A stretch of DNA of 64,000 bases from Candidatus Saccharimonadota bacterium (GTDB taxonomy: Bacteria; Patescibacteriota; Saccharimonadia; Saccharimonadales; Saccharimonadaceae): the NCBI GenBank assembly GCA_017514765.1, contig JAFWIU010000010.1, positions 1-64,000 of the forward strand, in the 5' to 3' direction. The notes under the pieces were generated by a model. The model was not told the DNA's origin. It worked only from the letters and a program-made list of their open reading frames with translations, and ran no database searches. Every line of letters starts with the position of its first letter. The stretch's first letter is position 1. Made by a program: the position numbers and the translations under genes. Of the stretch, positions 5,570 through 41,225 are shown one piece after another.

Positions 5570-7324
5570 ATGATGGAAAACGAGTTCGAAGAAGAGTTTA
5601 TATATCATCCGTTGGAAAATATTGAGGATGTAGATTTATTCTACGAAGCAATTGGTCGGGAGCATTTAACGAAAGCGATTTCGCCAGAACGGCCGTATAC
5701 TTATTGGACTATTGAGCTATATGACCAGCAAAATGGCTTGCGTGGTGGTGGCGGACTAGGCGTGCTGGCGGCAGATACTCGGAGAGTAGCCGAGAAGATG
5801 GGGGTGCCTTTTGTACTAATTACACCATTTTATCCGCACGAGACCCATCAGACTATTCATGACGGTGTAGTATATGACGAGCATGTAGATGTAGATTATC
5901 ATAAGTTTGGCTTCCGCTTGGTTGATTCAGTAAATATCAAGTGCTGTGATGCGTTATGTAAGTTAGAGGTAATCGAAAAAAAGTTTGCCAATACACGAAT
6001 TATTGCTGTAACAGAGCCAAATTTCGGAGAACTATATTCCGACACAAGTGGTTCCGATCATCGGTTATACCAAGAGGTATCGCTGGGTTTTGGTGGTTAT
6101 GCAGCCTTGAAGCTGATAGGTTTGAAACCTGCAATCATCCAGCTAAATGAAGTGGCTACTTTCTTTGCGGCGGTGGCTAGGCTTGATGAGTTAGTGCATA
6201 ATGGCATGGACTTCTATGAGGCGGTAGTATATACGAGGAAGCATACTTTATACACTAATCATACGTTAGTACAAGCGGCAGAGGCGGAGTTCACTTTAGA
6301 ACAATTTGAAAGATACGTATTTCCAAATATCAAATCTTCCGCCGTAAGGCGCTGGTTATCAGAGAAGTTTGAACATGGTCGGATTAAGCTATCATCGATT
6401 ACGATTGAGATTGCAGAATTAAAGAGTGGCGTATCGAAGCTACACACACGTGTCGCAAACTATCACGATGTGGCAGGTAATAAAGTCAAGTTCAAGGCGA
6501 TTACAAACGGTATCGATATGGATGCTTGGGTGCTACCTGGCATTATGAGCTTTTACCATCAGGCTCAAATACTCGACGAGCGAGATATGCCGCTGGATGA
6601 CCTGGATATCAAGTTGGAAGCGTTATCTGCAATGGAGATACGTCTGGCCAAGAATAATGGTCGGCGAGTACTCAATAAGGTGTTAGAGCATCGACCGGAT
6701 CATCGCGGACAAGTTCTGCAGTTTTCGGATGACGATTTTATTTTCGATTTTAAACGTCGTTTCGTGGATTATAAGCGTCCGGATTTGCCTTTCCGAGATT
6801 TAGAGCGACTAAGGGCAGTGCTGGAAGAGCACGGTGCACACTATTTGTTGGCTGGGAGAGTGCATACGGGTGATCACGTGATGGCTGGTAAATTGAAACA
6901 TTTGCTAGAAGCAGTTGAGACTGATGACTATCTGAGAAGTCACGTGCATTATTTGCCAGATTATGATGAAGAGCTGGCGTATGGCCTCTCGGCTGGCTCA
7001 AATGCGTCTATTAATGTACCGATTGTAGGCTTGGAAGCCTGCGGCACTAGTTGGATGAAAGACGTGGCGAATTTTGGGCTACTGATTTCGACCCACGACG
7101 GTGGTGTAGCGGACGGTTCGATTAATGCCTATTTAAACGTGTCCGGTGCGGATGAAAATGAAGAGTTAAATATGCTATATCAGCGTATGGAAGAAGTAAT
7201 GTCGGCTTGGGAAAATGATTTTGACTTGGAAACCTTAGTACGAAGACAGCTAGTTGAGTTTTTGCCGGTGATTTCAGGTGCCAGAATGTTGAAAGATTAT
7301 CTTGACTATTTGTTCCCGATATAG
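5570..7324 (+). CDS. glgP: alpha-glucan (glycogen/maltodextrin) phosphorylase, GT35
   Basis: Phosphorolyses alpha-1,4-glucans to glucose 1-phosphate using pyridoxal phosphate. The 584-aa protein is of the short (AgpA-like) type. Visible family blocks are GGGGLGVLAAD, TNHTLVQAAE, ITNGIDMDAW, RRFVDYKRPDL, AGRVHTGD and EACGTSWMKD, where the Lys of the last block is the PLP lysine. This block normally reads EASGTSxMK, so the Ser to Cys change is a small oddity. TACAAT at 5555-5560 precedes ATG 5570 by 9 nt; ATG 5573 is an alternative. An intrinsic terminator follows. It suggests use of host or stored glucan as carbon source. Confidence 0.88.
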   Translation: MMENEFEEEFIYHPLENIEDVDLFYEAIGREHLTKAISPERPYTYWTIELYDQQNGLRGGGGLGVLAADTRRVAEKMGVPFVLITPFYPHETHQTIHDGVVYDEHVDVDYHKFGFRLVDSVNIKCCDALCKLEVIEKKFANTRIIAVTEPNFGELYSDTSGSDHRLYQEVSLGFGGYAALKLIGLKPAIIQLNEVATFFAAVARLDELVHNGMDFYEAVVYTRKHTLYTNHTLVQAAEAEFTLEQFERYVFPNIKSSAVRRWLSEKFEHGRIKLSSITIEIAELKSGVSKLHTRVANYHDVAGNKVKFKAITNGIDMDAWVLPGIMSFYHQAQILDERDMPLDDLDIKLEALSAMEIRLAKNNGRRVLNKVLEHRPDHRGQVLQFSDDDFIFDFKRRFVDYKRPDLPFRDLERLRAVLEEHGAHYLLAGRVHTGDHVMAGKLKHLLEAVETDDYLRSHVHYLPDYDEELAYGLSAGSNASINVPIVGLEACGTSWMKDVANFGLLISTHDGGVADGSINAYLNVSGADENEELNMLYQRMEEVMSAWENDFDLETLVRRQLVEFLPVISGARMLKDYLDYLFPI

Positions 7325-10954: not shown

Positions 10955-10973
10955 TTCTTCTTAAGAAGTGTGC

Positions 10974-11151
10974 TATAATTATAGCAGTTACCAAAGACAG
11001 CGACGGGAGTAATCCTTAATCATGTCGCCGAGGAATTTCTTACAATTTATTTGGTGACGTAATTATTAACAATTAGTCAACCATGCGAGTTACCGTGGAC
11101 TTGTTCCGCTAGTAGCTCGGCAATATCAAATAATAACCAAAGGAACTTTTT
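10974..11151 (+). promoter_or_regulatory. rplJL promoter and ribosomal protein L10 leader
   Basis: The extended -10 TGC-TATAAT (TATAAT 10974-10979) starts a leader of about 166 nt. Its 5' part reads ACCAAAGACAGC, then CCTTAAT, then GTCGCCGAGG. This is the conserved L10-leader arrangement (as in the B. subtilis rplJ leader) that imitates the L10-binding site on 23S rRNA and lets excess L10-L12 repress its own synthesis. The 3' half holds further pairing and the Shine-Dalgarno AAAGGAA before ATG 11152. A perfect palindrome CTTCTTAAGAAG (10957-10968) lies in the -35 region. Confidence 0.8.
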
Positions 11152-38654: not shown

Positions 38655-39263
38655 TTATGCCATAGTTAGTTTGTCTTGGATAGTGGCGAAGATTTCTTCG
38701 ATGGTGCCGGAGGCATCGATGAGGGTGAGGTTGAATTCTTTGGCGATTTTGGGATAGGCGGCGTTGACTTTTTGCTGGAATTCACTGGGCTTGGCTTCGA
38801 AGGTTTCGGTGGCTTTGCCGCGATGTTGTTGACGAGCGAGGCGAACTTTGTCTGAAACTGTTAGAATAAAACCGTAATCTGGATGGACATATTTATCAGG
38901 TAAGAGGTCTTTGGTGATGCGGATGATTTTGCTTCTAGACACGCCTTCGCCGTAGCCTTGGTAGGCGAGGGTGGACCAATAATTACGAGCGGAGATAACG
39001 ATACCGCCACGCTTTAAGATTGGTTCGGCGATTTTCTTCCAGAGTTCAACGCGGGCAGCAGTGAAGAGAAGGACGTTGGTAAGGGGTTCAAGATTGTAGC
39101 CGCGAGTAAGAATCATATCGTGGAGGTCGTGAGCTTGCGGGAGGTCACCGTCAGGTTCTTCGAGCATAACGACTTCTTTGCCTTGGGCTTCGTAGTGTTT
39201 TCTGAGTAGTTCGGCTTGAGTGGATTTACCGGTGCCGTCTTGGCCTTCAATGACAATGTACAT
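38655..39263 (-). CDS. tmk: thymidylate kinase
   Basis: Phosphorylates dTMP to dTDP. 202 aa with P-loop EGQDGTGKST (residues about 5-14), a DRY-like position replaced by ARNYWST (about 93-99) and a lid region near RLARQQHRG. The first ATG (39263) overlaps the tdk stop. With tdk it forms a thymidine salvage pair. Confidence 0.9.
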   Translation of the reverse strand: MYIVIEGQDGTGKSTQAELLRKHYEAQGKEVVMLEEPDGDLPQAHDLHDMILTRGYNLEPLTNVLLFTAARVELWKKIAEPILKRGGIVISARNYWSTLAYQGYGEGVSRSKIIRITKDLLPDKYVHPDYGFILTVSDKVRLARQQHRGKATETFEAKPSEFQQKVNAAYPKIAKEFNLTLIDASGTIEEIFATIQDKLTMA

Positions 39264-39853
39264 TATTTAGTTCCTTTCGAGTATTTTTCGTAGCACGCTG
39301 GGCAGATGGCGCGATATTCAATCTTGGTCTTGCCGTCGTCAATGAGAACGTCAGGTCCGTCAGCCATGAATTTGCCGTCTAGAAAGCGTGCATTGCAAGT
39401 GGCTTTGTGACCACATTCGCAGATGGTTTTGATTTCTTCGATCTCGTGAGCGATTTGAAGAAGCCTAGTGGCTCCTTCGAAACCACCGTCGGTGAGACGG
39501 AAGTTCAACCGGAGGCCGTATGCCATGACTGGAATATGGAGATCATTGACGACGCGCATGAGTTGGTCTACCTGCGAAGGTGTCATAAATTGAGCTTCAT
39601 CAACGAGAATGCATTTTACATCTTTGTATTCTTTACTGATCTTTTTGTATAAGTCGGTTTCGCGATCGAAACAGAAATTGGTTTCGCGTTCGGGACCGAT
39701 GCGGGTTAAGATTTTACTGCCGTTCTTGGTGTCGGTCTTGGGTTTAATAACGCAGACTTTGTGGCCGCGCTCTTCATAATTAAATGCAACTTGCAGTAGC
39801 TGCATAGTTTTGCCACACCCCATTGCGCCGTAGCGAAAATATAACTTTGCCAT
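39263..39853 (-). CDS. tdk: thymidine kinase, type II
   Basis: Salvages thymidine to dTMP. 196 aa with P-loop GAMGCGKT (residues about 8-15), DEAQF (catalytic Glu, about residue 89), lasso/zinc region CECGHKATCNARF and CPACYEKY (four Cys zinc site kept). Minus-strand TATAAT (plus-strand 39862-39867) ends 8 nt before ATG 39853. Shares an 18-bp symmetric promoter with ung. Confidence 0.95.
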   Translation of the reverse strand: MAKLYFRYGAMGCGKTMQLLQVAFNYEERGHKVCVIKPKTDTKNGSKILTRIGPERETNFCFDRETDLYKKISKEYKDVKCILVDEAQFMTPSQVDQLMRVVNDLHIPVMAYGLRLNFRLTDGGFEGATRLLQIAHEIEEIKTICECGHKATCNARFLDGKFMADGPDVLIDDGKTKIEYRAICPACYEKYSKGTK

Positions 39854-39871
39854 ATGGTATAATTATAGCAT
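39854..39871. promoter_or_regulatory. 18-bp symmetric bidirectional promoter, tdk / ung
   Basis: The whole intergenic region contains the palindrome TATAATTATA (39858-39867). It reads TATAAT in both directions. Each hexamer ends 8 nt before the start codon on its side (39853 minus, 39872 plus), so the two transcripts would begin 2 nt before their ATGs from overlapping -10 elements. Confidence 0.75.
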
Positions 39872-40519
39872 ATGCATGAGAGTTGGAAGCCGTTCTTGAA
39901 ATCGGAGTTTGAGAAGCCGTATTTTAAAGAGTTGTCGGAGTTTTTGCATCAGGAATATGAGACGAAGACGATTTTTCCGCGCAAGGAATTGGTGTTTCGG
40001 GCGTTCGCGACAGATTTAAACGAAGTGAAAGTGGTGATATTGGGTCAGGATCCATATCATACGCCAGGTGCGGCGGAGGGGTTGGCTTTTTCGGTGCCGA
40101 ATTCGCAGCCGATTCCACCGAGCCTCATTAACATATATAAGGAAATTGATTCAGATATTGGGAAACATGCGAATCCACGAGGAAGTTTAGCGAACTGGCA
40201 GAAGCAGGGGGTGTTGCTACTAAATACTGTATTAACTGTGGAAGCGCATCGGCCGAAATCACATAGTGGGAAAGGATGGGAAACTTTTACAACGGCGACA
40301 ATTGAATATTTGAATAGGGAACGACCGCATTTAGTGTTTATCTTATGGGGAAGGGATGCAAGAAACAAAAAGGCCTTGATTGACACTTCGAAACATTTAG
40401 TGTTGGAATCGGCGCATCCGTCGCCTTTGTCGGCTTATAATGGGTTCTTCGGGAGTAAACCGTTTTCGAAATGTAATCAGTGGCTTGAGGCACATGATTT
40501 AGAGCCGATTGTGTGGTAA
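39872..40519 (+). CDS. ung: uracil-DNA glycosylase, family 1
   Basis: Removes uracil from DNA. 215 aa with the water-activating motif GQDPYHTPG (residues about 57-65), AFSVP, LLLNTVLTVE, and the Leu-loop HPSPLSAYNGFFG. Length normal. Its stop TAA directly abuts the TTA of the convergent dCMP deaminase stop (TAATTA at 40517-40522), leaving no gap. Confidence 0.96.
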   Translation: MHESWKPFLKSEFEKPYFKELSEFLHQEYETKTIFPRKELVFRAFATDLNEVKVVILGQDPYHTPGAAEGLAFSVPNSQPIPPSLINIYKEIDSDIGKHANPRGSLANWQKQGVLLLNTVLTVEAHRPKSHSGKGWETFTTATIEYLNRERPHLVFILWGRDARNKKALIDTSKHLVLESAHPSPLSAYNGFFGSKPFSKCNQWLEAHDLEPIVW

Positions 40520-41065
40520 TTAGAGCCATTTGGCGAGACGGGCGTATTCTGCGGAATCGGCGGGGTAGGAATCGAGGATATCTTCGATATAGGTCTTGCC
40601 ATTTTCGAGATTCAGAGTCTCGACTTCGGGCATGGAAGCGAGAAGACGGATGACGGCCTCGTCGGTATCGATATTAGTCATGGACTTCTTAGGGTCAGTG
40701 GAATGAGAATGCACGCGGAGCTCTCGGTAGACAAAACGCTTGATGCCGGCCTGGAGGCAGTGCTTGAGACAGTTGTCGCAGGTGGCGACGCGGTTATAGA
40801 TTGTACAGCCGGTCAGGTCCCGATGTGCGTAGATGAGAGCATTCATCTCGGAATGAATTACGAAATAATACTTCATCGGGCGCTCGGTGAGGGTCATTTT
40901 GGCTTCGTCAGAACCCTGTACTAGGCCATTATATCCTAGCGAAACGACGCGCTTGTGAGGATCAACGATGACGCAGCCCATTTTGGACGAAGGGTCCTTG
41001 GACTTGACTGCTGCCGCTTCGGCGATTTGCATAAAATATTCGTCCCAATCTTGTTGTTTACTCAT
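40520..41065 (-). CDS. dCMP deaminase
   Basis: Zinc enzyme converting dCMP to dUMP for thymidylate supply. 181 aa; HSEMNA (His ligand and catalytic Glu) and ATCDNCLKHC (two Cys ligands, normally PCxxC, here TCxxC). ATG 41065 is chosen: TATAAT (plus-strand 41072-41077) ends 6 nt before it, and the sequence begins MSKQQDWDEYFM like the family. The frame upstream to 41224 has no support. Complements tdk, tmk and ung in uracil/thymine balance. Confidence 0.88.
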   Translation of the reverse strand: MSKQQDWDEYFMQIAEAAAVKSKDPSSKMGCVIVDPHKRVVSLGYNGLVQGSDEAKMTLTERPMKYYFVIHSEMNALIYAHRDLTGCTIYNRVATCDNCLKHCLQAGIKRFVYRELRVHSHSTDPKKSMTNIDTDEAVIRLLASMPEVETLNLENGKTYIEDILDSYPADSAEYARLAKWL

Positions 41066-41225
41066 ATATATATTATATACCCGAATGAGGGATTTCTCAA
41101 TCGATGTCAATTTGGACATAATAGCCTCATATCGGACTATTTTAAGCACAAGCGACCATTTGGGGGTTGTATTTTTGGTGGATGTGTGCATAATGAGTGC
41201 CACTATTAACTTAAAAAGGAGCAAA

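Follow-up and report, generated by a model that had tools for sequence, protein, structure and literature searches.

The tdk/ung Spacer and Its Flanking Genes

The window, by which we mean the whole stretch of 64,000 nucleotides that was analyzed, belongs to a Saccharibacteria genome of 0.70 Mb that is 99% complete and has ruminant-gut Saccharibacteria and Candidatus Nanosyncoccus alces as its nearest named relatives. The genes for thymidine kinase (tdk) and uracil-DNA glycosylase (ung) are located on opposite strands on either side of a short spacer, both being securely identified by NCBIfam and Pfam, and the adjacent tmk gene is presumably cotranscribed with tdk (Table 1). Longer N-termini of the 2 proteins were ruled out by in-frame stop codons inside the spacer, TAG at 39866 to 39868 for ung and TAA on the minus strand at 39865 to 39863 for tdk, and the N-terminus of the tdk product, MAKLYFRYGAMGCGKT, agrees with the start of its protein family. 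The spacer contains no Shine-Dalgarno sequence and has no room for one.

Table 1 Features at the tdk/ung locus, in window coordinates
Feature	Position	Strand	Evidence or remark
tmk, dTMP kinase	38655..39263	-	overlaps tdk end by 1 bp
tdk, thymidine kinase, 196 aa	39263..39853	-	NF003300, 225.1 bits; Pfam
tdk/ung intergenic spacer, 18 bp, ATGGTATAATTATAGCAT	39854..39871	.	16/18 positions dyad-symmetric; kept in relatives
Palindromic core TATAATTATA, made of a consensus -10 hexamer on each strand with a 2-bp overlap	39858..39867	.	sequence; relatives
Extended -10 for ung, TATGG-TATAAT	39853..39863	+	sequence and genome consensus T-R-T-G-N-TATAAT
Extended -10 for tdk, TATGC-TATAAT	39862..39872	-	sequence and genome consensus
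Predicted ung transcription start region, leader 0-2 nt	39870..39872	+	inferred from -10 spacing
Predicted tdk transcription start region, leader 0-2 nt	39853..39855	-	inferred from -10 spacing
ung, uracil-DNA glycosylase, 215 aa	39872..40519	+	NF003592, 308.8 bits; Pfam

As stated in the first-pass annotation, TATAAT can be read on both strands of the 18-bp spacer, at 39858 to 39863 on the plus strand and at 39867 to 39862 on the minus strand, each hexamer being located 8 nt from its own ATG. The spacer had also been described as perfectly symmetric, which is wrong for this genome, where the pair G39857/G39868 breaks the dyad and the reverse complement reads ATGCTATAATTATACCAT; the fully symmetric spacer, ATGCTATAATTATAGCAT, is present in 3 relatives (L006, L026, and L031). 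Two features had been overlooked, namely that both hexamers belong to full extended -10 elements and that the dyad runs on through both start codons, from 39851 to 39874, with this single broken pair. The first T of the extended -10 element of ung is the last base of CAT, the start codon complement of tdk, and the first T of the tdk element lies opposite the A in the start codon of ung. Judging from the spacing, the candidate start sites of ung are A39870, 7 nt from the -10 hexamer, and A39872 of the ATG itself. No -35 element was found at the site.

Extended -10 Elements Close to Start Codons Are Typical of the Genome

Promoter statistics were compiled from 430,555 bp of the genome, taken as a sample. 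TATAAT preceded the ATG of a long open reading frame with a gap of 6 nt in 54 cases and of 7 nt in 27 cases, whereas the means for 19 permuted control hexamers at these gaps were 1.6 and 1.8, respectively. Gaps of 6 to 7 nt were thus the commonest, and the gap of 8 nt seen at tdk and ung occurred in only 10 cases, which counts against reading the spacer as a promoter of both genes. The 98 promoters with gaps of 6 to 9 nt shared the consensus T(70%) R(85%) T(80%) G(72%) N TATAAT and displayed no -35 signal. The standard promoter of the genome is therefore an extended -10 element, its typical transcript is predicted to have no leader or almost none, and leaderless genes appear to be common. The tdk/ung spacer bears the whole consensus element, TATGN-TATAAT, on each strand.

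It could be argued that the spacer is a real promoter in one direction only, that the TATAAT on the other strand is accidental, and that transcription of the other gene begins elsewhere. Near-symmetry is an inherent property of the -10 element (PMC10268837), and TATAAT followed by TATA is also seen at some one-sided promoters. However, TATA followed only 7 of the 87 leaderless promoters in this genome, and these 7 include tdk and ung as well as pairs whose divergent partners were missed by the gene model. Nor did the roughly 450 bp upstream of each gene contain a better candidate promoter; the sole consensus match in this search, located on the plus strand inside ung, reached 9/12, and the number of matches was below the chance expectation. 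Considering also that the TG and the hexamer are maintained on both strands in related genomes, in the compact loci as well as in those with shifted geometries (see below), we judge a one-directional promoter to be very unlikely. A Fisher test within the genome (p = 0.01) is given little weight, since the crude gene model missed short partner genes (L186 and L191).

The Spacer Is Conserved in Related Genomes

Within the genome, the core TATAATTATA occurred 15 times versus 6 times for its reversed control, and the longer motif TGNTATAATTATANCA occurred 4 times versus 0. Stronger evidence that the core exceeds chance comes from its conservation. A tdk gene diverged from ung across 14 bp (n = 17), 17 bp (n = 8), or 18 bp (n = 12) in 37 of 126 distinct ung loci, and TGN-TATAAT was present on both strands in all 37 of these compact loci (18 bp or less). 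In the 27 distinct loci with an overlapping core, the TG, TATAATTATA, and CA were invariant while the N positions varied, but these loci were picked by the presence of TATAATTATA, and the unbiased figure is 37 of 37. Across the same 27 loci, all but 1 of the 19 third codon positions in each flanking gene varied. The invariance of the core next to drifting third codon positions, together with the absence of the reversed control from all 99 genomes of the genus, led us to reject a chance AT-rich palindrome.

The geometry of the 2 hexamers was found to vary. The shortest spacers in the set measure 14 bp; in these, the 2 consensus -10 hexamers overlap, the T of each TG is contributed by the ATG of the opposite gene, and the start codons are placed at the canonical start-site distance. 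In the 17-bp form, one variable base separates the hexamers, and in the 18-bp loci L013 and L132 they are separated by 2 bases. These shifts, from a 2-bp overlap to a gap of 1 or 2 bp with a variable centre, leave both hexamers intact.

Operators often look like the near-perfect 16-bp dyad found here between 2 functionally related genes, and the spacer might accordingly bind a dimeric transcription factor that coregulates tdk and ung, with the likeness to TATAAT being secondary. An operator should keep its half-sites at a fixed spacing, whereas we observed 3 spacings among the tdk/ung loci, and the operator is rejected because the half-site spacing shifts by 3 to 4 bp among relatives while the hexamers stay the same. 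Furthermore, the half-sites match the general promoter consensus of the genome exactly, they are located where a -10 element would be relative to the ATG, and the same sequence precedes unrelated pairs such as dnaG and an unknown gene, or prfA and tRNA-Val. An operator is therefore extremely improbable. The comparison of the spacer in related genomes, which had been proposed as a check in the first-pass annotation, favors a bidirectional promoter instead, both elements being kept in every compact locus.

The compact arrangement is not universal. In 5 loci (L023, L024, L107, L130, and L134), tmk takes the place of tdk at the ung promoter, and in L024 the hexamer on the ung side is TACAAT. No tdk gene was found in the genomes of L023 and L024 (G010 and G092), the 2 that were examined among these, so that the promoter seems to have stayed after the loss of its partner gene. 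Other relatives have spacers of 29 to 57 bp, many of which include a Shine-Dalgarno sequence belonging to tdk alone (the reverse complement of TTTTACCTC) and a separate -10 element for this gene; in the L030 type, the Shine-Dalgarno sequence of tdk is GAGG. In 65 of the 126 ung loci, neither tdk nor tmk was located within 60 bp, which also counts against the preferred reading. The compact trait changed at least 24 times on a quick ung tree, the support of which is too weak for estimates of how frequently the compact form was gained or lost; loss from an ancestral tdk-ung neighborhood seems more likely than repeated gain.

The Palindromic Motif Recurs across the Genus

The motif TGNTATAATTATANCA was identified at 245 sites (summed from the table) in 87 of the 99 genomes of the genus, compared with none for its reversed control, and it was rare elsewhere, being found in 15 of 115 genomes from other genera of the same family and in 9 of 185 genomes from the rest of the phylum sample. 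Forms with separated hexamers accounted for 31 sites plus 7 sites in 60 genomes of the genus versus 0 for the control. To classify the surroundings, a unit was defined as an open reading frame of at least 100 amino acids or a tRNA gene. Among 68 palindromic sites, units started on both sides of 56, on a single side of 8, and on neither side of 4. For single TGNTATAAT leaderless promoters without TATA, a unit was present on the other side in 17 of 64 cases, only 1 of which was close.

Recurrent gene pairs, which were named from their N-termini with no scoring against protein families, included glycyl-tRNA synthetase and a membrane protein, RNase H and an HD-domain protein, galE and a sugar transferase, and another gene and tRNA-Arg(CCT). 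The gene dnaG, for DNA primase, diverges from the gene for a conserved protein of about 205 amino acids (MDGQEYLNQISA...) over a palindromic spacer of 14 to 18 bp (L203, L230, L235, L242, L256, L258, L267, L269, L280, and L287). Likewise, prfA, for a release factor according to its N-terminus, and tRNA-Val(CAC) flank the same palindromic promoter at 6490 to 6590 in L181 and also in L232, L239, L243, L248, L253, L259, L261, L270, L271, L273, L276, and L281, and this protein gene and tRNA gene seem to share one promoter.

The putative tdk/ung promoter thus belongs to a type of promoter that is found throughout the genus. We consider it likely that this genus of Saccharibacteria uses the fused promoter, in which consensus extended -10 elements overlap by 2 bp, as a standard and reusable intergenic unit of 14 to 18 bp, including the form in which the start codons complete the TG elements, and that divergent housekeeping genes as well as pairs of protein and tRNA genes, such as prfA and tRNA-Val, would be obligatorily expressed from one polymerase site.

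The motif is not always located between divergent genes. A perfect 16-bp palindrome, TGCTATAATTATAGCA, was found at 10971 to 10986 in the window, at the start of a match to the L10 leader (RF00557, 10973 to 11161) that precedes rplJ, where the upstream gene is codirectional. The presence of TATAATTATA at promoters such as this one, which have no close divergent partner, counts against the preferred reading. In L194, 2 near-identical stretches ending in TATAATTATA were observed about 1.3 kb apart at the contig end (5958 and 7243); these resemble sites adjoining ychF in L229 and L241 and represent a possible repeated element.

A Probable Minimal Bidirectional and Leaderless Promoter

Taken together, we find it highly probable that the spacer is a minimal bidirectional, leaderless promoter with a double extended -10 element. 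In the proposed mechanism, 2 complete extended -10 elements (TRTGN-TATAAT) in a face-to-face arrangement would allow a sigma-A-type RNA polymerase to bind either way round, with no -35 element required. Initiation would take place 0 to 2 nt from the ATG, in one direction for tdk(-tmk) and in the opposite direction for ung, such that the products would be leaderless or near-leaderless mRNAs. The predicted start sites of tdk and ung are 15 bp apart and could not both be occupied, and the 2 orientations would therefore be mutually exclusive in time. By this geometry, the promoter would serve one polymerase at a time, which is physically sensible.

A bidirectional promoter with leaderless genes had been suggested in the first-pass annotation. 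The comparisons support such a promoter, with leaderless or near-leaderless genes, well, given the 37 of 37 loci, the consensus of the genome, and the 56 of 68 sites with units on both sides. The extreme compactness inferred there holds for the 18-bp spacer, but it is not unique to this gene pair, since 14-bp versions exist and the design recurs throughout the genus. The tdk/ung design looks like a real, strongly conserved case of extreme genome compaction.

Bidirectional promoters with shared -10 elements, extended -10 elements, and leaderless genes are already known. The tdk/ung promoter resembles the bidirectional promoters described by Warman, Grainger and colleagues (Nat Microbiol 2021, as cited in PMC12825309 and PMC10268837) in that the sequence is short, a -10 element is usable on both strands, and 2 polymerases would exclude each other sterically; the overlap of opposite-strand -10 elements that characterizes this type is 2 bp here and is kept on both strands. 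Divergent starts in such promoters are 7 to 25 bp apart, and a distance of 15 bp is predicted from the -10 positions at tdk/ung. The preferred, although not required, spacing is 18 bp in Escherichia coli, where 10 and 23 bp are also used (PMC12825309), and 18 bp is common in Salmonella (PMC10268837); the predicted spacing of 15 bp, or about 11 to 12 bp by arithmetic for relatives with separated hexamers, departs from these values. The hexamers in E. coli and Salmonella are pseudo-symmetric compromises, whereas those at tdk/ung are 2 perfect hexamers, both with the consensus TG, and both genes start at the promoter itself.

As in other extended -10 promoters (TRTGN/TGN), a TG is located one base upstream of TATAAT, at -15/-14 on both strands, and a -35 element is not needed, in line with its absence from the 98 promoters. 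Unlike ordinary promoters of this kind, 2 elements are fused face to face and the opposite start codon provides the first T of each TRTGN. Leaderless genes, as in Mycobacterium tuberculosis (PMC3898074) and mycobacteria (PMC4633059), have a -10 element that places the start at or beside the start codon, leaving no possibility for a Shine-Dalgarno sequence, as is also the case with the 8-nt gap at tdk and ung. In contrast to the mycobacterial genes, tdk and ung would share one promoter, and their starts are predictions from the sequence. A text search of the literature for leaderless genes and Shine-Dalgarno sequences in the candidate phyla radiation returned a match on a Gracilibacterium only, and no start-site mapping in this group turned up.

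What is new is the combination of 2 perfect extended -10 elements with a two-base overlap, from which both genes start, and its recurrence across the genus. The result is a very compact bacterial bidirectional promoter, with start codons 14 to 18 bp apart and nothing but 2 overlapping -10 elements in between, and it indicates, on the grounds of sequence, that genes of this genus normally have extended -10 promoters and leaderless mRNAs. Because many genomes have the promoter at defined gene pairs, a natural series is available, from the 2-bp overlap through gaps of 1 or 2 bp to separated promoters with Shine-Dalgarno sequences, which is suited for tests of whether competition between polymerases couples the expression of divergent genes.

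Polymerase Choice and the Roles of tdk and ung

A further suggestion is that bidirectional transcription and polymerase competition serve as a biological switch between thymidine salvage and uracil excision. The predicted starts, at 15 bp from each other, would preclude simultaneous occupancy, and in E. coli transcription in one direction, when strongly activated, can repress that in the other (PMC12825309). However, all 5 bidirectional promoters tested in E. coli displayed no competition at basal activity and were too weak for it (PMC12825309), the arrangement has been lost in many relatives or replaced by tmk or by separated promoters, which would be unexpected if it were needed, and exclusion is not obviously needed at the other gene pairs that have this promoter. 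A switch is thus unlikely, and the functional coupling of tdk and ung through polymerase choice, as proposed in the first-pass annotation, is hypothetical.

The link between the 2 enzymes is plausible and slightly stronger than previously stated, because ThyA, ThyX, and the trimeric dUTPase were not found in the genome (G000), in a search that gave matches in the control genomes. If ThyA and ThyX are indeed missing, dTMP must come from salvage via tdk and tmk. If there is no trimeric dUTPase, dUTP may enter the DNA more often and provide work for ung, which we regard only as a lead, the search having covered the trimeric type of dUTPase. Despite these negative results, a gene similar to those for dCMP/cytidine deaminases adjoins ung, at 40520 to 41068 on the minus strand.
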